Under the pieces are notes generated by a model that saw only the letters and a list, made by a program, of their open reading frames with translations, was not told the DNA's origin and made no database searches. From a virus, in the IMG/VR virus record IMGVR_UViG_3300032086_003797, positions 62,001 through 126,000 of that record: 64,000 nt of DNA; one strand, 5' to 3'. This document shows positions 531-42,912 of the stretch, one piece after another. A program made the translations under genes and the position numbers. The first letter of the stretch is position 1, and each line of letters starts with the position of its first letter.

Positions 531-3072
<2,542 letters not shown>

Positions 3073-6463: not shown

Positions 6464-6677
6464 TATTAGTAGCTTCCTGACTCAAGGCGACTTGGTTTAT
6501 CTACCCGCTAAAACATCGCTAACAAAATATGATTCAGCGGGCGTAGCGAATACTTTTTGCTATCTGAAGGAGCCAAGAGATGTTGTCTATAACCGTGGTC
6601 TCGGGCTCGGCAGGGTAGAGATTTTGTATGAAGGGGAACTTTGGTGCGTGCAGGAAGAAAGCTGTTTCATGCCATGA
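6447..6677 (+). CDS. Small GDLV-motif protein
   Basis: About 76 residues, beginning with GDLVYLPAK and continuing as a likely small beta-barrel (SH3/KOW-like). It belongs to a set of about a dozen such proteins in the window. The ATG at 6447 or 6450 follows GGAGA. It overlaps genes on both sides, ending in ATGA. Function unknown. Confidence 0.6.
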   Translation: MMAKTNISSFLTQGDLVYLPAKTSLTKYDSAGVANTFCYLKEPRDVVYNRGLGLGRVEILYEGELWCVQEESCFMP

Positions 6678-7630
6678 AGATAACTAAGCCAAACACTTGG
6701 CTGAATCTTTATGATTTCTATGCCACGAACCATCTAATTCCAATTGACTTTTGGTATGATTCAGATCAGCCTGGAGGACCATACAATAATCCTTTTTATG
6801 AGCCTGTGACGAATCGAAGGTTCAATCAGGTGTCAGCCAAGAAGGCTAATCCTGCCAGGGTCCGACTGATATTTTTGCGAACCCTACTTGCTGATGAGCC
6901 AGGGTATAAAAGGTTGTGTCACAAAGATGGCAGACCAGTATGGGCTTATGATCTAAAGTACGAAGGCGTCAAGCCATCTCAGGGCAGGACGCTATCCTTC
7001 AATCTCAAGGGGGAATCAAAGCGGTTTGTGGTTAGCGAGAGGCATACACTCTTCTTAGAGGATGATCAGTATATCAATCCAAACCACCACTTTTTTATGC
7101 TTAGTCATAGATTGGCTTTCTCTTGTTTTGGTAATCCGTTTGTTGCTGATAGATGCCTTAAATTGATGTATCAGAAATGCGACACGTCTGAAACAGAAAA
7201 GGAATTTATGAAGCGAGTCCAAGAAGATTCTCAAATAAAGATTGGCTCTTTGGTAGAAGTTAGGATGGGGCTGTTCGCTCCTGATTTTAAGTATCGCAAG
7301 AATCTCCTGATTACTATGGCAGAAAAATATTGTGATAAAATAGGATATGAGGAGTCACACCCCGAGCGGGCTAAATTACTCCGACTGCTGAAAGGGTCGT
7401 CAACTTTTCACGGCATCTCAGAAACCCAAGAGCCGTCATATATAGAGTTTGTCAATTGGTGCAGGGATAGCAACGAGTGCATATTTCCGTTAGGGCTGGT
7501 ACTGAGGAAAGACCCAGTGCCTAAAAAGCTTTCGTCCAATGGTCGGGAGTCTTACACAGTAAAATTTGGTGATTTAGTATATGAGGAACTTCACCCTATA
7601 CAAATGGAGGTTGTAAAAAACAATGTATAA
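6674..7630 (+). CDS. Unrecognised 318-residue protein with two GSLV/GDLV segments
   Basis: The start at 6674 is chosen for the ATGA overlap; a GTG at 6641 is the alternative. The protein contains IKIGSLVEVRMG near residue 195 and VKFGDLVYEEL near the C-terminus, both like the small beta-barrel family here. The rest is aromatic and mixed alpha/beta with no family I recognise. It is translationally coupled to glutaredoxin. Confidence 0.7.
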   Translation: MKITKPNTWLNLYDFYATNHLIPIDFWYDSDQPGGPYNNPFYEPVTNRRFNQVSAKKANPARVRLIFLRTLLADEPGYKRLCHKDGRPVWAYDLKYEGVKPSQGRTLSFNLKGESKRFVVSERHTLFLEDDQYINPNHHFFMLSHRLAFSCFGNPFVADRCLKLMYQKCDTSETEKEFMKRVQEDSQIKIGSLVEVRMGLFAPDFKYRKNLLITMAEKYCDKIGYEESHPERAKLLRLLKGSSTFHGISETQEPSYIEFVNWCRDSNECIFPLGLVLRKDPVPKKLSSNGRESYTVKFGDLVYEELHPIQMEVVKNNV

Positions 7631-7877
7631 TGTAGTAGCAAAAGCAACGTGTCCCTATTGTGTGTCAGCAATAGAGTTACTAAAAGAGAATGGCTTATCT
7701 TATCAAGTAGTGTCGGTTGATGGAAACCCTGAACTTTTACAGGAGATGAAGTCTAATTACAATTGGCAGACAGTACCGATTATTACTGAAGTAACCCCAA
7801 GGGGAACTAGGTTTATTGGTGGCTATACGGATCTTCGAGAACACCTCAAGACTGGGAAGACGCTGCTAAGGGGATGA
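7623..7877 (+). CDS. Glutaredoxin
   Basis: The 84-residue thioredoxin-fold protein has the dithiol site CPYC (9-12 of KATCPYC), the cis-Pro motif TVP and the GG-YTDL glutathione-binding end. It would reduce disulfides, most likely supplying electrons to a ribonucleotide reductase encoded elsewhere or by the host. It overlaps the previous gene by 8 bases. Confidence 0.92.
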   Translation: MYNVVAKATCPYCVSAIELLKENGLSYQVVSVDGNPELLQEMKSNYNWQTVPIITEVTPRGTRFIGGYTDLREHLKTGKTLLRG

Positions 7878-7878
7878 T

Positions 7879-8217
7879 TTGTCAGAAGGTAAGAAATATG
7901 GTCTTAAGATCAACACTGTAATTACGAGCATCGAATACTTGTCGCAGATAAGAGACTATGCTGAATCTATTATCCTAAACTTTGAAGAAGACGAAGAATT
8001 TTACACAAAAGAAATGCTCAGAGATCTGTGTGCATTCGTGACTGCTGTCACGGGTCAGATAGAATGGGTGATGGATGATATAGTGCCTAGGGCACCAAAG
8101 GATGGCGTAGTACCAGTAAGCTCGGAGGATATTGATACCATGAAGCTTTACAGTGAGATGGTTAACAACAGGCTGACTAAATTAAAAAAGTATCATATTT
8201 CTTTCAAGGAGCATTAA
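7879..8217 (+). CDS. Unrecognised helical protein
   Basis: The 112-residue product starts at TTG after AAGGGGAT, one base after glutaredoxin. It is helical and acidic, with no motif I recognise. Confidence 0.65.
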   Translation: MSEGKKYGLKINTVITSIEYLSQIRDYAESIILNFEEDEEFYTKEMLRDLCAFVTAVTGQIEWVMDDIVPRAPKDGVVPVSSEDIDTMKLYSEMVNNRLTKLKKYHISFKEH

Positions 8218-8220
8218 CAA

Positions 8221-8334
8221 ATGTTGAATAATCTATTACAATATAGGCACACCGCAGTCAATGCAGCTTTAGGGTTTGTGTTCTTGGGTGTGATCACAGC
8301 TAGGCTAATCATAGAACGACTTGGGGATAGGTAG
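8221..8334 (+). CDS. 37-residue membrane peptide
   Basis: A strong AAGGAG lies upstream of the ATG. The peptide has one hydrophobic helix (NAALGFVFLGVITARLII) and a charged tail. It fits exactly between its neighbours. Confidence 0.55.
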   Translation: MLNNLLQYRHTAVNAALGFVFLGVITARLIIERLGDR

Positions 8335-8336
8335 TA

Positions 8337-8579
8337 TTGTATACTAAATCAGAGCTAGCTTTTATTAGGAGCATGTTGGCTGGCGACAGTTGTCAACAGG
8401 CTCAGTCTAATGTGGCTAGGCTTGGCTTACCTGCGCTTACGAAACAAACACTAGCAGTCTGGCAAAACATATACCTACCAGTATTACGAAAAAACAGATT
8501 TTACGCAACCAGCGTCGCCTCAGGCACAATGTCTATGAGCGACGTAATCACTAGCATCAATAAAAGGATGAAAGGTTAG
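8337..8579 (+). CDS. Unrecognised 80-residue protein
   Basis: A TTG start follows the preceding stop by two bases. The protein is basic, with a helix-turn-like stretch (PALTKQTLAVWQN), so DNA binding is possible but unproven. Confidence 0.6.
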   Translation: MYTKSELAFIRSMLAGDSCQQAQSNVARLGLPALTKQTLAVWQNIYLPVLRKNRFYATSVASGTMSMSDVITSINKRMKG

Positions 8580-24118: not shown

Positions 24119-24286
24119 ATGGACTTGGTAGATAAGATTATGACGTATGAAGCTGGTGGGCTAGATGATGCAGAGGTTGTCGAGCTATACCAAGAGCTAC
24201 ACGATACAGGCATCCTATGGGAGCTACAGGGGCACTACGGTCGACGTGCGTCCCTAATGCTGCAAGAGGGGATGATCGGGCAATGA
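24119..24286 (+). CDS. Small conserved phage protein (DUF7417-like)
   Basis: The 55-residue protein follows the pattern DLVDKIMTYEAGGLDD...ELYQELHDTG...LQGHYGR that I recall from a very common small phage protein without known function. GGAGGCACC precedes the ATG. Confidence 0.7.
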   Translation: MDLVDKIMTYEAGGLDDAEVVELYQELHDTGILWELQGHYGRRASLMLQEGMIGQ

Positions 24287-24480
24287 GTATCCAGCTAGGC
24301 AGCTTAGTAAAAATAAGCGTGCCCCTGATGGCAGGTGACGCACCAGAGTTGCAAGGCATCTTGGTTGAGATTAAACCTATGCAGACAGAAATAAATAAAG
24401 GTAAACATCTTTGCAGAATCATGCTAAATGAAGGTGGCGAAGAATACTGTTTGCTAACAGACTTGAAATTGGTAAAATGA
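24283..24480 (+). CDS. GSLV-motif small protein
   Basis: 65 residues beginning MSIQLGSLVKIS, then beta strands with an acidic loop. The ATGA overlap sets the start. First of five consecutive or near-consecutive members of this family. Confidence 0.65.
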   Translation: MSIQLGSLVKISVPLMAGDAPELQGILVEIKPMQTEINKGKHLCRIMLNEGGEEYCLLTDLKLVK

Positions 24481-24683
24481 TAATGGGCATTGGTTCCTTA
24501 GTACAACAAACAATCCGTGGCGGGCTCCATAGCGGTCAAGTCGTCTCATCGACTTTAGGTTTGATTGTAAATGAACTTAAAGAACCAGGCGCACTACCAC
24601 AGTTCAAAGTGGATTGGTTCAAGGGACCTGACCGAGGTAAGCAGCTTTGGTATTACAAGCATGATTTAAAGGAGGCTGAATGA
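24477..24683 (+). CDS. GSLV-motif small protein
   Basis: 68 residues beginning MIMGIGSLVQQT, with a Trp-rich end (KVDWFKGPDRGKQLWYY). ATGA overlap with the previous gene and TGAGC overlap with the next. Confidence 0.65.
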   Translation: MIMGIGSLVQQTIRGGLHSGQVVSSTLGLIVNELKEPGALPQFKVDWFKGPDRGKQLWYYKHDLKEAE

Positions 24684-25063
24684 GCCAAGATAATATTGTA
24701 ACGTTAGAGAACCCTGGTTGGGACTACAAGTATGTAGCAAAAATCGGGGAAGACCATCACTTCTACTTAGCTAAGCTGACGAGGGAGAGTTTCATCCAGC
24801 TTTGGCAAGCGTGTAATAGCGTGGAGCAGTTCAAGGCGTCGTATGAAGCCATGGGGGGTGGGACATGTCGCCTCCCGCACGAGGGTGCAACACCTGTCCC
24901 AGTGGAGTCCGTACACAAAATCCAGTATACGGTAGATGTGCTTAGGAAAAAGAATATCACCCTAAAGGACTACGATGCGAATGATCCCGCCGAAGAAGCC
25001 ATGTGGGGAGACTTACGGAGGCTAGCGAGTGCCCACTCAAGGCGACAAGTTCAAGGTAGGTGA
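24680..25063 (+). CDS. Unrecognised 127-residue protein
   Basis: Mixed alpha/beta and acidic, with no GSLV motif. It is embedded among GSLV-family genes and overlaps the next one by 35 bases. Confidence 0.6.
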   Translation: MSQDNIVTLENPGWDYKYVAKIGEDHHFYLAKLTRESFIQLWQACNSVEQFKASYEAMGGGTCRLPHEGATPVPVESVHKIQYTVDVLRKKNITLKDYDANDPAEEAMWGDLRRLASAHSRRQVQGR

Positions 25064-25244
25064 CCTTGTAAAGTTTCCGCCTAATCATCTACTGGGTGGT
25101 GTCGGGGGTAATCTCTACATTGTCGTAAGGCAGCACGAGGGCGGCTTTATATATGTGCATAACGCCTGCCCCAAAGAGTACGGCAATACGGAGGCAATGC
25201 TTTATCATGAGGATGACTTTGTGCTCTACTCGACGGCACCATAA
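25029..25244 (+). CDS. GDLV-motif small protein
   Basis: 71 residues with KFKVGDLVKFPP, followed by LYIVVRQHEGGFIYV, a regular beta pattern. The GTG start lies inside the previous gene. Confidence 0.6.
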   Translation: MPTQGDKFKVGDLVKFPPNHLLGGVGGNLYIVVRQHEGGFIYVHNACPKEYGNTEAMLYHEDDFVLYSTAP

Positions 25245-25348
25245 GCTTGAAAACACTTGTTGCGTTTCTATTGCAAAAAATACTTGGACTACGGTAGTCC
25301 TGCCTATGTGCCTGCAAAGAGTAATATTTATCAAAGGTAGCCGTTTAA

Positions 25349-25522
25349 GTGAGAACTATAAGAAAAAAAGAAGTGACCAAGGGGGCTGCCGTAGCCTACC
25401 TACTATATGGAAGGACACCACAGTGGATCAAACTCACAAAAAGCGCAGGACGCCTGCGATCGCCTAACGCCGACGTTAAGACAAAAGTTAATAAAAAAAA
25501 TTACGGAAACTTCTATTGGTGA
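25349..25522 (+). CDS. Possible 57-residue basic protein
   Basis: A GTG-started frame follows an in-frame stop and has AAAGG 11 bases upstream. The product is protein-like (GAAVAYLLYGRTPQWIKLTK) and basic. It overlaps the next frame by 116 bases. A further short frame (25257-25340, 27 residues, no ribosome site) lies in the gap before it. Confidence 0.4.
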   Translation: MRTIRKKEVTKGAAVAYLLYGRTPQWIKLTKSAGRLRSPNADVKTKVNKKNYGNFYW

Positions 25523-25841
25523 CCTGGTGGAATCTAAGTTTGTTATTTATGGACCTGCGTTTACGATGGACGGCTATGAAGCTTCCTATGGGTCTGGACC
25601 TGGGCATCAAGGGATCGGTACTAGCTCACAAAAAATTTACGCCGACTTGTTGGATGAGATTTATGCTGGTACGAGCGTTAGTGTCGAGAGGGGTACCCTG
25701 GGTATCGTGATCGGCATGACAACTTTTAACGTGCATGTGCATTGGCTACCTAAAGGACCTAAGTGGTGGATATTTCCCGAGGAATATAATATTGTCTCAA
25801 AAAATAAAGAGGATACCTTTAGGATCTCTGGTTCGCATTAA
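25407..25841 (+). CDS. GDLV-motif protein, start uncertain
   Basis: The GDLVESKFVIYG motif lies 39 residues into the longest frame, and the part after it resembles the family. ATG at 25407 has no ribosome site and overlaps the 57-residue frame. A non-standard or downstream start nearer the motif, where other members begin, is plausible. Confidence 0.5.
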   Translation: MEGHHSGSNSQKAQDACDRLTPTLRQKLIKKITETSIGDLVESKFVIYGPAFTMDGYEASYGSGPGHQGIGTSSQKIYADLLDEIYAGTSVSVERGTLGIVIGMTTFNVHVHWLPKGPKWWIFPEEYNIVSKNKEDTFRISGSH

Positions 25842-26034
25842 GCACTACGCCGACTTTGATGAGCAAGAAGATCTTTATATTGTGGTAGGTTTGGAGCCTA
25901 TGAGCCCATACGAGCTAAATAGCCATAGGGCAGAGCATTATACATTTTGTTATGTTTTAGCGCCTGCTGGTGACCCTGATGATTTTAAAAAATATCATTA
26001 TCATAATGAGCTAATTGTGGTATCATCAAGTTAG
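25792..26034 (+). CDS. GSLV-motif small protein
   Basis: The TTG at 25792 has GAGGAA 7 bases upstream and is preferred to the longer GTG frame. 80 residues beginning MSQKIKRIPLGSLVRIKHY, then LYIVVGLEP as in the 25029 protein. Confidence 0.6.
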   Translation: MSQKIKRIPLGSLVRIKHYADFDEQEDLYIVVGLEPMSPYELNSHRAEHYTFCYVLAPAGDPDDFKKYHYHNELIVVSSS

Positions 26035-26045
26035 GAGATAACTGT

Positions 26046-26168
26046 ATGACTGAATCGATTGTAATGGGGCTGCTTGCGTTTATAGCCTGGGTTGGGTTTA
26101 GTACGGTGATTACATTTGTTATTGCGTCGGCTTTCTTTGGACTGCCGAATAAAAAGGAGAAGCGTTAG
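26046..26168 (+). CDS. 40-residue membrane protein
   Basis: AGGAGATA precedes the ATG. One long hydrophobic segment (VMGLLAFIAWVGFSTVITFV) with a basic tail. Its last base is the first of the Smr gene. Confidence 0.55.
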   Translation: MTESIVMGLLAFIAWVGFSTVITFVIASAFFGLPNKKEKR

Positions 26169-26425
26169 TGAATAAGCTAGACCTACATGGCACACCTCAT
26201 GATGAGGTAAAAAATTTAACGGCGAGCTTTATCGAAAAAAATCTGCGGCGAGCGAGTATTCTTGAGGTCGTCACTGGACATAGTAACACCATGAGGGATA
26301 TCGTGCTGGACGTCCTGACTCAATATAATCTTGAGTGGTATCTCGGTACTGGAAATCTTGAGGGGTCAATCAAAGTGATCGTGGATGACTACTCGGAGTA
26401 TTATGATGACTATATTGATAATTAA
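26168..26425 (+). CDS. Smr-domain nuclease-like protein
   Basis: The 85-residue protein is a stand-alone Smr domain: LDLHGTPHDEV (4-14), EVVTGHS (33-39), MRDIVLDVL and a final beta strand. Smr domains nick branched DNA or cleave RNA on stalled ribosomes. The GTG start overlaps the previous stop. Confidence 0.85.
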   Translation: MNKLDLHGTPHDEVKNLTASFIEKNLRRASILEVVTGHSNTMRDIVLDVLTQYNLEWYLGTGNLEGSIKVIVDDYSEYYDDYIDN

Positions 26426-26741
26426 TATTTTGTTGGCGAGTCCGCAAATCGAATGTCCCCGAGTCCTGCCTGGAAGTGAGACACCGCTGCCTGCTGGTGT
26501 TAGCCTGTCACGAGAGGATGAACTACTACAACGTGTAGCTTGTTTTTGTAGTCGAGTGATGGAACAAGAGCGCACTTGCTTAGAAAGAGCTTTCACTCGG
26601 CAGGCTAGGGAGCGGTGCAAGGAAACAACTGCTGCTTGGGTTAGACAAAATCTGGCGCTGCCTCGCAACTGGGTCGAGGCTGGTGGTGTAGCGCCTCCAC
26701 CAAACCGATCGATGCCAAGAAATATTAGGGTGGTATATTGA
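26406..26741 (+). CDS. Secreted Cys-containing protein
   Basis: The start at 26406 lies 7 bases after GGAG. The N-terminus (TILIINILLAS) is a short signal peptide. The mature protein has four or five Cys and many Arg/Glu, suggesting a disulfide-bonded periplasmic protein. It is coupled to the PilX-like gene. Confidence 0.55.
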   Translation: MTILIINILLASPQIECPRVLPGSETPLPAGVSLSREDELLQRVACFCSRVMEQERTCLERAFTRQARERCKETTAAWVRQNLALPRNWVEAGGVAPPPNRSMPRNIRVVY

Positions 26742-27157
26742 GGAAAGGATTTACTTTAGTATTAGCAGTCTCTATGGGTATGCTTCTCACTGGGCTGGCG
26801 ATTATGCTTTTTCAATCCGTCAATCTGGATATGATGATTGCTGGTAACAAACGTAGATACAACCAGGCATCGTTTGCGGCGCAAAGTGGTATGAATCATT
26901 TTGCCGCTTTGCAGTTCAATTATGATCAGCTAAAAAATTTAGCGGGGAATAATCTGGAACTAAACCTGATCCGTGAAGCAATAGATGATAAACATAGTTA
27001 TGAGGTTTCTATCAAGTTCTGTTGCGGTCGTCTTGGGGAGGTATTACAGCCTGGACAATATTATGTTCAGAGCACTGGTTGGTATAAGAGAAATACTAAC
27101 CACGAGTCTTCTGCAACGTATCAAAGTTTTTATTCTCTTGACAATAATGATTTTTAA
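26738..27157 (+). CDS. PilX-like type IV pilin protein
   Basis: The 139-residue protein begins RKGFTLVLAVSMGMLLTGLA, a prepilin-type leader with cleavage expected between Gly and Phe. It then has AGNKRRYNQASFAAQSGMNHF, very like the PilX N-terminal domain. The conserved Glu at mature position 5 is absent. PilX is a minor pilin that helps assemble type IV pili. In a phage it may interfere with, or be incorporated into, host pili. Confidence 0.7.
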   Translation: MRKGFTLVLAVSMGMLLTGLAIMLFQSVNLDMMIAGNKRRYNQASFAAQSGMNHFAALQFNYDQLKNLAGNNLELNLIREAIDDKHSYEVSIKFCCGRLGEVLQPGQYYVQSTGWYKRNTNHESSATYQSFYSLDNNDF

Positions 27158-27207
27158 GGTATAACTATTATAAGGGGTCATAAACTTTAGCATGAGGAAA
27201 TTCCATC

Positions 27208-27399
27208 ATGAAAATTTATCCATTCTTACCCACCGAACAACGTCGCAAGGAACGTCATAAAGAATTAGAATTAGAGCTACCAGTACCACAACACAGCGAG
27301 ATATATGAAGAGGCTACCACAGCACCAACAGGTTCTGACCGTGGCGTTTGCATTATCGATATGAATGAAGATATGACTGGTGGCGTGATTATAGACTAA
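27208..27399 (+). CDS. Unrecognised 63-residue acidic protein
   Basis: AGGAAA precedes the ATG. The N-terminal part is Glu/Arg-rich and the end is hydrophobic (GVCIIDMNEDMTGGVIID). Confidence 0.55.
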   Translation: MKIYPFLPTEQRRKERHKELELELPVPQHSEIYEEATTAPTGSDRGVCIIDMNEDMTGGVIID

Positions 27400-27403
27400 G
27401 AGC

Positions 27404-27435
27404 ATTTAACAAAACCATTAAGGAGGTTACATAAA
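27404..27435 (+). promoter_or_regulatory. Leader shared with the Hc1-like gene
   Basis: ACCATTAAGGAGGTTACA upstream of the ATG matches the leader at 16905-16921, apart from one inserted A. Confidence 0.6.
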
Positions 27436-27897
27436 ATGGCTAAGAGAAGAAAAAGAAGACGAATAGCATTTCTGAATCGAATGAAGGATATGATGAATGA
27501 AGATCCTTCATTACCACTGGATCGTGCTAAGACACTAACTGAGGTTGAAGTCAAGAATGCGCTCCGTGTTGCGGATGCAAAAGCACGACATGATAAAGAA
27601 GAGCATCATAGAGTATTCGAGGAAACGTTATTCGGTAAGAATACTACTACCACACCCGTAAAGGAAACAACGACGGTAACTCCTGTAGAAGCCAAAGCAA
27701 CACCCGTGAAAACGGAGACAGTGACTACTACTGCTACTAAGCCAGTGGTTACCAAGGCGACCACGACTACTGTTACTGAAAAAGCTACAGCAGTTACCAC
27801 CAAAACAACCACCACAGCTAAGACTACAGCCAAAGCTAGAACAGCCAGTAAGTCTAAAAAGCGAACCACTACCAAGAGTAGAAAGAAGAAGGCTTAA
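27436..27897 (+). CDS. Histone H1-like Lys/Thr/Ala-rich protein
   Basis: A 153-residue basic protein. It starts MAKRRKRRR, has a helical first half to about residue 65, and then a low-complexity tail of Thr, Lys, Ala, Val and Pro ending TTTKSRKKKA. This matches the unstructured tails of H1-like bacterial and phage proteins that condense nucleic acid. The very strong AGGAGG leader suggests abundant product. Confidence 0.7.
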   Translation: MAKRRKRRRIAFLNRMKDMMNEDPSLPLDRAKTLTEVEVKNALRVADAKARHDKEEHHRVFEETLFGKNTTTTPVKETTTVTPVEAKATPVKTETVTTTATKPVVTKATTTTVTEKATAVTTKTTTTAKTTAKARTASKSKKRTTTKSRKKKA

Positions 27898-28218
27898 ATG
27901 TCCAACCCCTTCAAAGAGATCTTAGGTGATATTATAGATAAGCTCAAAGAAGAGCGTCCAAAGCACGCTTTGCCATATGGTACTTGGGTGAAACATTATA
28001 AAGATCCTACTCTTTGGGGGGTTGTGACAGAGGCGCATGATGCAACAGGAGAAAATCTTGCTGGTGAGAAGACATGTAGTTACATGGTTTACTGGCTAAA
28101 TAATGGAAAGTCTAAAGGAAAGAAAAGTAAGATGTTTAAGACAACTATTGAAAATGACTTTTCTCTGATTGTTCAATTTGACGAAGATGGTAAACCATTT
28201 TTGTTTGAAGATGTGTAG
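27898..28218 (+). CDS. Small beta-rich protein related to the GDLV set
   Basis: The 106-residue protein has LPYGTWVKHYKDPTLWGVV, positioned like the G(D/S)LV motif, and a Lys/Gly-rich loop. It begins directly after the histone-like stop codon. Confidence 0.6.
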   Translation: MSNPFKEILGDIIDKLKEERPKHALPYGTWVKHYKDPTLWGVVTEAHDATGENLAGEKTCSYMVYWLNNGKSKGKKSKMFKTTIENDFSLIVQFDEDGKPFLFEDV

Positions 28219-28224
28219 GGTATT

Positions 28225-28419
28225 ATGAGTGGTACCTATTCTTACTCTACTGGTTGGTATTCTATTAGCCCTGCTTTTGCCTGGTGGAACTTTGATGCTC
28301 ATCGTGTGGCTGCGATCAAAGCACGCAGAGAAGCAGCGAGAATTGCTGAAGAAGATAAACAACAAAAGAAAATTAACTCTGCAAAAATTGCAGAAGGAAC
28401 AATATCGGTATATGCGTAG
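28225..28419 (+). CDS. Overlapping 64-residue frame A
   Basis: The ATG lies 4 bases after AGGG. The product is Trp/Tyr-rich and then a basic coiled coil (IKARREAARIAEEDKQQKK). It is overlapped almost fully by frame B starting 4 bases later. Only one may be real. Confidence 0.35.
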   Translation: MSGTYSYSTGWYSISPAFAWWNFDAHRVAAIKARREAARIAEEDKQQKKINSAKIAEGTISVYA

Positions 28420-28447
28420 TAAGCATTCAAGAAAGGAAAATAAATGA
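28229..28447 (+). CDS. 72-residue membrane-anchored coiled coil (frame B)
   Basis: The GTG lies 8 bases after AGGG. It has a strong membrane helix (ILTLLVGILLALLLPGG) then a basic coiled coil. It ends in ATGA overlap with the next gene, which supports it over frame A. Confidence 0.55.
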   Translation: MVPILTLLVGILLALLLPGGTLMLIVWLRSKHAEKQRELLKKINNKRKLTLQKLQKEQYRYMRSKHSRKENK

Positions 28448-28605
28448 ACTGCTTTCAAATCGAAGTCCGTGGTGCAACCTTTACAATCTGGGCTCCTACC
28501 CTCCGTGAGGCATTAGAAACCTTCATGATTGATATGGATATCTATGAAGTACCCAAGCAGTTGAGTGCTTTTGATATGCCTAGTAATATTCCAGCAGGCT
28601 TCTAA
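28444..28605 (+). CDS. Unrecognised 53-residue protein
   Basis: ATGA-coupled to frame B, with AAAGGAAA upstream. Beta-alpha-like, no motif. Confidence 0.55.
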   Translation: MNCFQIEVRGATFTIWAPTLREALETFMIDMDIYEVPKQLSAFDMPSNIPAGF

Positions 28606-28614
28606 TTACCAACG

Positions 28615-29085
28615 ATGTTTTGGTTAATTCTATCTTTATCATTCCCGTCGTATTTTACGGCTCAACAGACTTCCATGGCTCATACAATTATTGAGAAGAC
28701 TAGGCATGTTGGGGATGATCCATATTTGCTTGTTGCAACAGCATGGGTAGAATCTAGACTAAATCCTTTCAGTATATCCAAGACTAATGACTATGGTCTA
28801 TTCCAGATCAACTGGACATTCTGGGGCAGAGAGTGGGGATATAAAGACAGAAAAACATTCTATAAAGATATGTCCAACCCTTACCATGCAACTGTTGCAG
28901 CGATGGTTGTCTTGAAAGAAATGAGAAGATACAAAACATGCCAAGGATTAAATCTTCCTGCTTGTTATAATGGTGGACCAGGGTGGAAAGTTTCAAAGAA
29001 CAAAGATAAAATATTAGCTTACGCCAACAAGGTCAATCGACTAAGAATATATTATAAAAAAAGATTCCCTAACTGGAGCAAATAA
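28615..29085 (+). CDS. Lysozyme-like (SLT) transglycosylase
   Basis: The 156-residue protein has a hydrophobic signal (FWLILSLSFPSYFTA) and a GH23-like core. The catalytic Glu lies in TAWVESRLNPF (about 42-52), NDYGLFQIN follows (58-66), and LPACYNGGPGW comes near the end. It would cut peptidoglycan, either as a secreted endolysin or during entry or exit. It is the last gene before a structured leader and a virion-like gene. Confidence 0.85.
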   Translation: MFWLILSLSFPSYFTAQQTSMAHTIIEKTRHVGDDPYLLVATAWVESRLNPFSISKTNDYGLFQINWTFWGREWGYKDRKTFYKDMSNPYHATVAAMVVLKEMRRYKTCQGLNLPACYNGGPGWKVSKNKDKILAYANKVNRLRIYYKKRFPNWSK

Positions 29086-29110
29086 ATTTAACATTTGTAC
29101 AAGCAACGTG

Positions 29111-29182
29111 CTATCTATAGTAAGCCCGACACACAACCATAATGAGGAAACTTACGCCTCGTGTCGGAAGCATGTAAGATAG
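29111..29182 (+). promoter_or_regulatory. Structured 5' leader of virion-like gene
   Basis: Three nested stems: CTATCT (29111) with AGATAG (29177), CCGACAC (29126) with GTGTCGG (29161), and GAGG (29144) with CCTC (29157). The outer stem touches the AGGAGG ribosome site, so folding could control translation or protect the mRNA end. Confidence 0.45.
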
Positions 29183-29191
29183 GAGGATATT

Positions 29192-29674
29192 ATGGTAAAG
29201 TCAGTTTTCAGTGACAAAAAAGGTTTGGTTCAGAGTGCGGGATCTGGGGTTACAATTCAAAATTCACTCTCTGTGACGGGTCAAGTCGGGATGACGGGTG
29301 CAATTTCGGTACAATCAACACCACTTTTTGGTGGAGGTTTATCAGTCGGAGCACAGGCTGTTACAGCAGCAGGGTCTAACCAGGGCGATGCGGCAGCTAT
29401 TAGTGCCACAGGTGGTGCAATGGTTGTAGTTACTGGTGCAGATAACACCAAAGCTGTTCTCTTGCCATCTTTAGCTTCTGTTGGGGCTGGGAATATTTAT
29501 TTCATCCAGAACTCCTCAGGTAACACCTTAGAGGTATTTCCTTCATCGGGTGACAAGGTTTCACCTGCGGCTGATGATGCTGCAATTACTGTTGCTGCAA
29601 ATTCAATGCTGGTTTGTATCGCAGCCGATGCAACCCAATGGTTTGGATTCGAGCCTACTGTTGTCGGTGCCTGA
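29192..29674 (+). CDS. Virion/fibre-like protein
   Basis: The 160-residue protein is Gly/Ala/Ser/Thr/Val-rich, with the pattern IYFIQNSSGNTLEVFPSSGD and AITVAANSM typical of phage appendage or decoration domains. It has an AGGAGG start and is the first gene of the probable late region, closed by a terminator. Confidence 0.7.
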   Translation: MVKSVFSDKKGLVQSAGSGVTIQNSLSVTGQVGMTGAISVQSTPLFGGGLSVGAQAVTAAGSNQGDAAAISATGGAMVVVTGADNTKAVLLPSLASVGAGNIYFIQNSSGNTLEVFPSSGDKVSPAADDAAITVAANSMLVCIAADATQWFGFEPTVVGA

Positions 29675-29703
29675 TAGGTAACTTACAGCTTTGGCTAAGA
29701 GAA

Positions 29704-29733
29704 AGGCACTCCTTCGGGGGTGTCTTTTTTTTA
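29704..29733 (+). terminator. Rho-independent terminator
   Basis: AGGCACTCC pairs with GGGGTGTCT (with G-T pairs) across TTCG, then eight T. Confidence 0.8.
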
Positions 29734-29754
29734 TCTTTTTTATTTTTGATTTCC

Positions 29755-29804
29755 TTGACATATAGCCGTGCTATGGTATTATAAATTGTAAGGGAGATAG
29801 AGTT
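29755..29804 (+). promoter_or_regulatory. Promoter/leader cassette 5
   Basis: TTGACA, a 16-base spacer and TATTATAAATTG, then TAAGGGAGA before the ATG. It lies directly after the terminator. Confidence 0.88.
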
Positions 29805-30260
29805 ATGAAGTTAGAGAATGCTATCAAAAGAATCAACAAGCGTGCCAGCATCGTTGGTCGTGAGGTTGAGATCGATCGTCGTGATCGCAAAGTTTATGTT
29901 CGCTTTGAAGATGCTGTGAGCGAGCTTTCATTTTGGGTCAATAGTGATGGTCACATCAGTTCTCCTCATATTCGCCGTTATAATGACCATAGCGATATTA
30001 TGGTAGATTACTTCGCTGGTTATCATCTCGATAATCTCAAGCAAGCACTTGATTCGCTGGCTCCATTGCCACCGAAGTACGAAGTCGGCTCTCTTGTTCA
30101 GTTCAAGAACAGTAAGCGTAATCAGCGTTGGAAGCTGGCGGGCAAGGTTGCCTTGGTGATCCAAGCTGAGTCTGGCGGTAACTACAAGGTTCAGTACCCA
30201 GGTAGCGAAGATCGTTACAATCCTTTCTACTCCGAGCGTGATTTAGAGTTGGCGGCATAA
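29805..30260 (+). CDS. Cassette-driven GSLV-motif protein
   Basis: The 151-residue protein has a charged alpha/beta N-terminal domain (1-88), then a C-terminal barrel-like domain, YEVGSLVQFKNSKRN...VALVIQAESGGNYKVQYPG. This two-domain layout is like the cassette 1 gene. Mostly CGT/CGC arginine codons. Directly followed by another GDLV gene. Confidence 0.72.
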   Translation: MKLENAIKRINKRASIVGREVEIDRRDRKVYVRFEDAVSELSFWVNSDGHISSPHIRRYNDHSDIMVDYFAGYHLDNLKQALDSLAPLPPKYEVGSLVQFKNSKRNQRWKLAGKVALVIQAESGGNYKVQYPGSEDRYNPFYSERDLELAA

Positions 30261-30536
30261 ATGAGAAGCAAAGAAATCTTAGAAGAAATCAAAGCACGAT
30301 GCCCCATCAAGCTTGGGGATCTTGTGATGGCAGGTGGCAACTTTGACGACGCAGGCAACAAAGCAGTTCCTGTTATGTGCTTGGTGGAAAGTCTATCACC
30401 AGCTAACGACGATGCTTTTGATCGGGCCTACGAAGGTGCTGAAGATCACTTGATGTTTCGGCTGCAACCAGTAGGCGTTAAAGAGTCTAATATCGGATTG
30501 TTTGTTGACTACGCATGTAATCTAGAAAAAGTTTAA
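30261..30536 (+). CDS. GDLV-motif protein
   Basis: 91 residues with IKLGDLVMAGG and an acidic loop. It begins immediately after the previous stop, so it shares the cassette 5 transcript. Confidence 0.68.
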   Translation: MRSKEILEEIKARCPIKLGDLVMAGGNFDDAGNKAVPVMCLVESLSPANDDAFDRAYEGAEDHLMFRLQPVGVKESNIGLFVDYACNLEKV

Positions 30537-30544
30537 ATATTTGC

Positions 30545-30592
30545 TTGACACTTTGATATAGTGTGGTATTATAAATTGTAAGGGAGAGAGAA
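30545..30592 (+). promoter_or_regulatory. Promoter/leader cassette 6
   Basis: TTGACA, a 16-base spacer, TATTATAAATTG and TAAGGGAGAG. Confidence 0.88.
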
Positions 30593-30784
30593 ATGATTCA
30601 AGTAGGTTCCAAAGTTAGTCACCGTTTTCACCCGCTTTACCACAACAGTATTGGTAAAGTCATTAGCCTTGAGGGTCACCAGTTTGATGGTCACCAGATG
30701 GTCGTTGTGGATTGGGGTGTAAGTAAAAAAAGCATGTACCCCATCCAACATCACCACGCAGAAGCATTACGAAAGGAAGCATAA
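30593..30784 (+). CDS. Cassette-driven small barrel-like protein
   Basis: 63 residues beginning MIQVGSKVSHRF, then GKVISLEGHQFDGHQMVVVDW, a KOW/SH3-like layout. His-rich end. Confidence 0.68.
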   Translation: MIQVGSKVSHRFHPLYHNSIGKVISLEGHQFDGHQMVVVDWGVSKKSMYPIQHHHAEALRKEA

Positions 30785-31684: not shown

Positions 31685-32287
31685 ATGTTGAAAGTATTAG
31701 GGAAGTTGCCGAGGGAGTTAGTGGTCGCTGTTAGTGGTGGTCCTGATTCTATGGCTATTTTAGATTTCCTTAATAATAATCATAAGGTGACAGCATATTA
31801 TTTTGATCATGGCACAACATTCGGAGAAGAGGCGTACCATTTCCTTAAGAGCTACTGCGCAAGTAGAAAAATCCCATTTGTAACCAGCGTTTTATCAGAA
31901 TCTCGTCCAAGCGGCAAGTCACTTGAGGAACATTGGCGGGATGAACGCTATAAACGATTTCACGACTATAACCTACCCATCGTAACTGGGCATAATTTAG
32001 ACGATGTTATTGAATGGTTCCTGTTCTCATCTGTGCATGGTAAAGGAAAAGTTATTCCTTATCAAAATAAAAATGTTATCCGTCCTTTCCTATCTACCTC
32101 GAAGCAAAGCTTGATTGACTGGTGTACAAGAAAAGGTATTCCGTTTCTGACTGACCCTGGTAATAGTAACAGAAAATTTATGAGAAGTATTATCAGACAC
32201 GACATGATGCCTATCGTAGAAGAAATTAACCCAGGTATTCAAAAAACATTTAAAAAAATTGTAGAAAGCAGGTATAATAACATCTAA
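31685..32287 (+). CDS. tilS: tRNA(Ile)-lysidine synthetase, short form
   Basis: The 200-residue PP-loop enzyme has SGGPDSM (17-23), TGHNLDDVIEWFLF, IRPFL and IPFLTDPGNSNRKFMRSIIRH, all TilS signatures. TilS converts C34 of tRNA-Ile(CAU) to lysidine so that it reads AUA. The C-terminal domains of longer bacterial forms are absent. It lies between tRNA-Arg and the CAU tRNA, its likely substrate. A candidate ribosome site, AAGGAG, spans the tRNA 3' end and the spacer. Confidence 0.9.
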   Translation: MLKVLGKLPRELVVAVSGGPDSMAILDFLNNNHKVTAYYFDHGTTFGEEAYHFLKSYCASRKIPFVTSVLSESRPSGKSLEEHWRDERYKRFHDYNLPIVTGHNLDDVIEWFLFSSVHGKGKVIPYQNKNVIRPFLSTSKQSLIDWCTRKGIPFLTDPGNSNRKFMRSIIRHDMMPIVEEINPGIQKTFKKIVESRYNNI

Positions 32288-32296
32288 CAGCACTGT

Positions 32297-32373
32297 GGTC
32301 CACTAGCTCAATTGGTTAGAGCAACTGACTCATAATCAGTAGGTTCGAGGTTCGATCCCTCGGTGGACTACCA
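32297..32373 (+). tRNA. tRNA with CAU anticodon, probably tRNA-Ile2
   Basis: A 77-base cloverleaf with anticodon loop CTCATAA and encoded CCA. C4-G69 and C5-G68 in the acceptor stem agree with the known TilS identity pairs, and the anticodon stem lacks the three G-C pairs of initiator tRNA. Adjacent tilS supports Ile (AUA) over elongator Met. Confidence 0.9.
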
Positions 32374-42589: not shown

Positions 42590-42912
42590 GGGGGTAAACG
42601 GTATCGATTGATAGGGAAATAGAAAAGGTGCAAGGGTGAGGGAAGCGTGGCTCACTAAAAACGCTTAACTTCTAATCGCAAACGACGATTTTCAACTAGC
42701 ACAAGCAGCTTAATAACCTGACTTGACTTGAGGCGACGGCAGCCAAAAAACAGAAAGCCGTATTGTGTCTTGTAAGTGCTTTTGATTATCTCAGCCATAA
42801 TAAGATGATCTAGTCAAGTGGTCTGTCCGACGATAAAAACAGTTCTAACCTTGTGAATGACCTCTCTGTGGAACTAGGCAAGACGGGAGTTCGATTCTCC
42901 CTACCTCCACCA
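42590..42912 (+). ncRNA. ssrA: tmRNA
   Basis: A 323-base tmRNA. The 5' GGGGGTA pairs with 3' TACCTCC to form the acceptor stem, followed by encoded ACCA. The T-arm reads GGGAGTTCGATTCTCCC. The tag frame at 42678-42713 starts at GCA and encodes ANDDFQLAQAA followed by TAA TAA, close to the bacterial ANDENYALAA. It would rescue stalled ribosomes and mark products for proteases. Confidence 0.95.

Follow-up and report, generated by a model that had tools for sequence, protein, structure and literature searches.

A gene pair in a T4-like phage appears to encode a type IV pilin of the filament-tip class together with a secreted partner, and the two may act against a type IV filament of the host. 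The genes lie in a stretch of 64,000 nucleotides (hereafter the window), which comprises bases 62001-126000 of the 174,625-bp IMG/VR record IMGVR_UViG_3300032086_003797. The upstream gene (26406..26741, plus strand) encodes a secreted protein with conserved cysteines, called here the Cys protein, and the downstream gene (26738-27157, plus strand) a PilX-type prepilin of 139 residues; both open reading frames are found where an initial annotation, made from the sequence alone, had placed them. The assignment of the phage pilin to the tip class is well supported, and sequence comparisons indicate that the pair is a stable, conserved phage module. That it functions as a host-takeover module directed against a type IV filament of the host, most likely the type IV pilus, is the interpretation we favor, with a confidence that falls a little short of even.

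The phage prepilin and its secreted partner

The open reading frame of the pilin starts with TTG. Its product begins with the leader MRKG (26738..26749, plus strand), and the family alignment predicts that prepilin peptidase cuts after Gly4, which is invariant among 15 diverse members and is always preceded by K or R. The mature protein (26750..27157, plus strand; 135 residues plus the stop codon) starts with FTLVL and contains an AGNKRR motif, the sequence SGMNHF and, in the model, a four-stranded C-terminal sheet. The N-terminus, MRKG followed by FTLVLAVSMGMLLTGLAIMLFQSVNLDMMIAGNKRR (also written MRKG followed by FTLVLAVSMGMLLTGLAIMLFQSVNLDMMIAGNKRRYNQASFAAQSGMNHF), was compared with the Pfam family PilX_N (PF14341). 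In hmmscan, residues 3-52 matched 50 of the 51 profile positions with an E value of 2.9e-5 and a score of 24.4 bits, relative to a cut-off of 25.5 bits; in a six-frame search the score was 26.2 bits, above the cut-off. The nearest relative, G002, scored 28.3 bits, and matches with E < 1 were obtained for five of 13 family members, the best at 4.9e-6. AlphaFold2, given 13 sequences, predicted, with a mean confidence score (pLDDT) of 84.6, one long helix (residues 2-58), a second, short one and an antiparallel sheet of four strands, which together make up the architecture of a pilin. Support from the fold rests on this architecture and not on a Foldseek match, since a Foldseek search of the Protein Data Bank (PDB) with the model yielded nothing significant; the best pilin-type match was chain 2ret_E of the minor pseudopilin complex EpsI-EpsJ of type II secretion (E 0.14, probability 0.82). 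Comparison with viral models likewise gave no significant match. Because five of 13 members match PilX_N, the predicted fold is that of a pilin, the ratio of nonsynonymous to synonymous substitutions (dN/dS) is low and 22 other phage contigs carry the pair as well, the PilX_N match goes beyond chance. The PilX-like prepilin N-terminus of the initial annotation was thus borne out.

Glu5 is missing in every family member; in the window pilin, residue 5 of the mature protein is Leu. The initial annotation had noted this absence correctly but had treated it as a weakness of the pilin call, which does not hold, since PilX and GspK also lack Glu5 (PMC7541494). In Myxococcus xanthus, PilX has been modelled at the top of the minor-pilin complex, in association with PilY1 (PMC7541494), and PilX is treated in a review as the counterpart of the tip subunit GspK (PMC7248040). 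As both filament-tip subunits lack Glu5, its absence from the phage pilin is no anomaly and instead points to the tip-pilin class.

The phage protein shares with PilX of type IVa pili (Pseudomonas aeruginosa, M. xanthus) a short basic leader, Gly at position -1, the lack of Glu5, an AGN-type motif in helix alpha1 and the C-terminal sheet, and like PilX it would sit at the filament tip. It differs in being virus-encoded and short, in scoring at the PilX_N cut-off and in having as its companion a small Cys protein that belongs to no known family. Furthermore, no other recognizable class-III or N_methyl prepilin was found in the 174.6-kb record, for which reason the gene was not filed as a host pilX orthologue, that is, as the pilX gene of a fimU-pilV-pilW-pilX-pilY1 operon. 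With GspK, the tip pseudopilin of type II secretion, it has in common the lack of Glu5, the tip class and, in some phage members, similarity to the N-terminal part of the NCBIfam profile (L127, E 1.7e-4; L128, E 0.09; window pilin, E 0.06). By contrast, it lacks the large insertion of GspK, and its 139 residues compare with 307 positions of the GspK model. A GspK orthologue was ruled out by this size and by the score of the window pilin, 12.9 bits against a cut-off of 130, which arises from the N-terminus only.

The Cys protein comprises 111 residues if translation starts at ATG 26406 and 118 residues if it starts at ATG 26385; a further in-frame ATG lies at 26403. ATG 26406 is the best start because a Shine-Dalgarno-like GGAG (26395..26398, plus strand) is located seven bases upstream, in agreement with the start chosen in the initial annotation. 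The signal-peptide protein predicted there was confirmed in the alignments by an N-terminal signal sequence and by conserved cysteines. In 15 diverse members Cys24 (followed by Pro), Cys53, Cys65 and Cys78 are conserved (numbering from 26385), as is Trp85, and Cys55, which together with Cys53 forms a C-x-C spacing, is nearly invariant (His in L127). Inspection of the alignments revealed no lipobox before Cys24, the preceding residues being QIE, QID, NIT and similar. An outer-membrane spanin or a two-component spanin (Rz/Rz1) was ruled out by this lack of a lipobox. The protein has no relative in Pfam, PHROGs, NCBIfam or the PDB, and no similarity to PilY1, vWA domains or adhesins was found. 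AlphaFold2 predicted a helical hairpin with low confidence (pLDDT 68.5), and comparison of this model with known folds gave nothing useful.

The two genes overlap by four bases, TTGA (26738..26741, plus strand), in which the last two bases of the pilin TTG are the first two of the TGA that terminates the Cys gene (26739-26741). The overlap probably results in translational coupling. Vibrio cholerae likewise couples fimT-pilW-pilX-pilV through overlapping minor-pilin genes (PMC13249403).

Conservation of the gene pair among related phages

A search of viral contigs with the single pilin protein gave no match. Relatives were reached via related contigs bearing PhoH, and then by profile. In the clade reached through the PhoH gene, a protein search revealed the pilin in 14 of 50 records, one of them a weak edge fragment, and profile scans identified the pilin in 22 contigs and the Cys protein in 16. 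When each family was represented by a profile, the Cys gene was located directly upstream of the pilin gene in the window and in all 22 relatives. Their reading frames overlap in the window and in 21 of the 22 relatives (22 of 23 contigs in all); the coupling claimed in the initial annotation is supported. The exception is L109, in which a small lipoprotein-like open reading frame separates the two; this intervening frame, of 128 residues and with an LSGC lipobox, was seen only in L109 / L090. The most divergent members, those of L123, L127 and L128, are at 29-32% identity, and the neighboring genes read there differ. In L123, a full-length FtsH-like protease gene (6496-8397) directly follows the pilin module, and in L128, a 280-kb phage record, a c-type cytochrome gene (7195-7611) and a DUF3108 gene (7621-8331) lie near it.

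Relative to the nearest relative, dN/dS is 0.12 for the pilin gene and 0.086 for the Cys gene, values indicative of purifying selection on both; a decayed gene was ruled out by this selection and by the conservation. Among 12 phages, the distances between the pilins and those between the Cys proteins are correlated (r 0.91), and the partial correlation remains at 0.87 after removal of the PhoH distances (permutation p 2e-4). Co-divergence would also be expected of two genes that are simply inherited together, so that the correlation marks a unit that has been kept together and not binding of the two proteins.

Neither protein matched an isolated phage in a tblastn search of INPHARED. When 84,980 genomes of bacteria and archaea were scanned with the alignments of the two families, no relative emerged; the scans depend on conserved patterns that are short, so that distant host pilins would be missed. 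The pair defines two protein families for which no relatives were found in current phage family libraries.

Upstream of the pair the gene content varies. The Cys gene is overlapped by a gene encoding an 85-residue Smr-domain-like protein with an LDLHG motif (26168..26425, plus strand; Pfam Smr, PF01713, E 4.7e-4, under the family cut-off), and this is preceded by a gene for a 40-residue peptide with a single transmembrane segment and the C-terminal motif VIASAFFG (26046..26168, plus strand). An Smr-like gene occurs upstream in eight of the 23 contigs, each of them a closer relative, and is therefore accessory and clade-specific. Transmembrane peptides of 40-50 residues with an (A/S)AFFG motif are encoded at most 0.8 kb upstream of the pilin in ten of the 23 contigs, the window included, and in none of the most distant ones. 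As both genes are confined to part of the clade, the core of the module consists of two genes.

Possible action on host type IV filaments

In the favored model, the prepilin peptidase of the host would process the phage pilin after infection. As the phage has no other recognizable prepilin, the pilin would depend on the machinery of the host. Being a subunit of the tip class, it would compete for a place in the minor-pilin priming complex with the PilX of the host, and the Cys protein, exported to the periplasm, would bind to the phage pilin as a cap or partner, in the position that PilY1 occupies on host PilX. The host pilus could then not be primed, or it would carry a tip specified by the phage. 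The most likely gain would be that a pilus receptor or a pilus-dependent behavior is lost or changed in infection, which would amount to superinfection exclusion or behavioral control; the effect on pili and the exclusion of further phages are what we infer. What the sequence itself supports is a prepilin with a short basic leader and Gly at position -1, a PilX-type alpha1 helix that lacks Glu5, a pilin fold and a coupled secreted partner that is kept with the pilin. The GspK-like N-terminus of L127, the constant linkage of the two genes, their divergence in concert beyond that of PhoH and the purifying selection on both also speak for the model.

Phage proteins that switch off pili and thereby exclude superinfection are known (PMC8764522, PMC11436027). 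Gp05 (Tip) of D3112, Aqs1 of DMS3 and PfsE of Pf are likewise small phage proteins that alter host pili, with the same outcome as proposed here, but they target the cytoplasmic ATPase PilB or the platform protein PilC (PMC11436027, PMC8764522). Control of type IV pili by phages is thus established, and the new element would be the tip-pilin strategy. We know of no phage anti-pilus protein that is a pilin or a mimic of a tip subunit. If the model is correct, the phage would substitute the initiating subunit of the filament, unlike the inhibitors of the motor and the platform, and the pilin would provide a natural, dominant-acting probe of how PilX-class pilins start and cap type IV pili without the capping insertion of GspK. 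The resemblance of the Cys protein to PilY1/PilC, the tip adhesin on PilX, is a functional analogy only, that of a secreted partner of a tip pilin; in size the Cys protein falls far short of PilY1, and neither a PilY1 nor a vWA domain was found in it.

Several points weigh against the model. The PilX_N scores straddle the cut-off (24.4 and 26.2 versus 25.5 bits), and Foldseek found no significant PDB match for the pilin. A type IV pilus in the host is a supposition, as is binding of the pilin to the Cys protein. A lytic transglycosylase gene (28615-29085) about 1.5 kb downstream of the module is compatible with a role in lysis. In V. cholerae, overexpression of the whole minor-pilin set raised pilus dynamics (PMC13249403), which implies that additional minor pilin need not block and that the effect of one added tip pilin could be a block, a new tip or a stimulation. 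The initial annotation had proposed that the pair could block or alter host type IV pili and perhaps exclude rival phages; an action on pili fits all of the evidence, but the evidence does not separate blocking from re-tipping or stimulation.

A doubtful extension of the model is a pilus-tip complex made by the phage, in which the tip pilin and a dedicated secreted cap displace host PilX and PilY1 such that viral proteins would seal the pili or give them a new tip. No other virus-encoded type IV filament tip is known to us. It is somewhat unlikely that the outcome is re-tipping instead of blocking, with a working alternative tip whose phage-specified adhesin alters the attachment or aggregation of infected cells. 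We know of no precedent for this, and the Cys protein, with its approximately 110 residues, is small and showed no similarity to adhesins or PilY1. Nevertheless, PilX of M. xanthus binds PilY1 at the tip, and differing sets of PilY1 and minor pilins are thought to yield differing tip properties (PMC7541494). The large insertion of GspK may cap the filament, and for PilX, which lacks the insertion, another capping mechanism must be postulated (PMC7248040); the phage pilin, like PilX, has no such insertion but does have a partner protein.

The main rival of a different kind is a role in the envelope or in lysis, in which the inner-membrane-anchored pilin-like protein and its periplasmic partner would form an unusual spanin-like or piston-like device that acts together with the nearby transglycosylase. 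Small overlapping genes for secreted proteins are reminiscent of Rz/Rz1, a lipoprotein-like frame lies between the two genes in L109, and pilin-bearing relatives encode other secreted lipoproteins and proteases. We consider this role unlikely: the conserved traits (the leader Gly, the PilX AGN motif, the pilin fold) are those of a prepilin and would be dispensable in a spanin, the Cys protein lacks a lipobox, and in the distant loci that were read closely (L123, L127, L128) the transglycosylase does not adjoin the module. Replacement of GspK at the pseudopilus tip, with type II secretion or another type IV filament system as the target, would agree with the shared tip class, the GspK-like N-termini and the weak fold similarity to EpsI-EpsJ. 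This target is quite unlikely, as the GspK matches are far under the cut-off and limited to the N-terminus, the large insertion is absent and the window protein scores better with PilX_N. Finally, the similarity to PilX_N could stem from a host pilin gene acquired by the phage and carried as a neutral remnant, which is highly improbable given that the gene is intact, evolves under purifying selection, is kept with its partner in 23 contigs and has no relative in the two genome scans.

Host clues and genomic setting

The phage encodes two secreted proteins with the MopE metal-binding repeat (PF11617), one of which also has a vWA domain and one an acidic DAGTD linker. Linkers of this kind, like EICDGxDNDCDG repeats, are a typical feature of Myxococcota and related groups, but the repeat is also found elsewhere. 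Of 22 pilin-bearing records, 19 contain the MopE repeat, as does one of nine related pilin-free ones (Fisher p 1.7e-4, indicative only, as the records are related); the three pilin-bearing records that lack it are contigs of 16, 48 and 73 kb. This distribution suggests an association of the module with one particular type of host, which may be Myxococcota-like. Lipoproteins that combine the MopE repeat with a vWA domain are encoded at L004:4767-6041 (minus strand), L164:13246-15354, L165:3318-5363, L166:6666-7907 and L168:5488-6744. Such a lipoprotein could be a marker of the host or act together with the pilin; a vWA domain is present in PilY1 too. A search of plasmids with the lipoprotein gave no indication of the host. 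In Bradymonabacteria, relatives of the myxobacteria, the type IV pili are complete and are presumed to serve predation (PMC7460792), and a host of this type would therefore have the target.

The phage context assumed in the initial annotation is evident from the record, which encodes a tail sheath and a terminase of the T4 type (PF03237). This terminase shares 41-44% identity with its counterparts in Microcystis phage Mel-JY01, the Flavobacterium phages 'immuto' and an uncultured phage. The record is thus that of a T4-like myovirus without close cultured relatives. The virus group is presumably marine, judging from IMG sample numbers.

Further genes were noted in the window and in related contigs. 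Numerous proteins of 60-100 residues, encoded at 24217-30784 of the window and in relatives, share a GDLV SH3-like start and apparently form a large paralogous family. Outside the window, at L004:13150-15210 and L008:225-3841, a dozen proteins have near-identical N-termini, MKKLLTEWRKYLKE or MKITKxQLRxIIKEE, which recall the capsid-targeting sequences of T4, carried by internal proteins that are injected along with the DNA. A gene of approximately 275 codons ('VHGYxKPE'), located downstream of the pilin in relatives, has a similar start. Also outside the window, an M50 (RseP-like) site-2 protease and a trypsin-like secreted protease are phage-encoded near each other (L004:8206-9006 and L004:6852-7748). 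A GroEL gene (window 1480-3072) is approximately 40% identical to other phage GroELs, and a tmRNA gene (window 42590-42912) specifies the tag ANDDFQLAQAA. A gene resembling that of the tRNA-Ile lysidine synthase TilS (PP-loop; window 31685-32373 and L168:966-1693) lies directly 5' of a tRNA with a CAT anticodon, whose loop, CTCATAA, resembles that of tRNA-Ile2. The arrangement is repeated in the relative G053, and the phage may supply both a tRNA-Ile2-like tRNA and the enzyme that alters its decoding.
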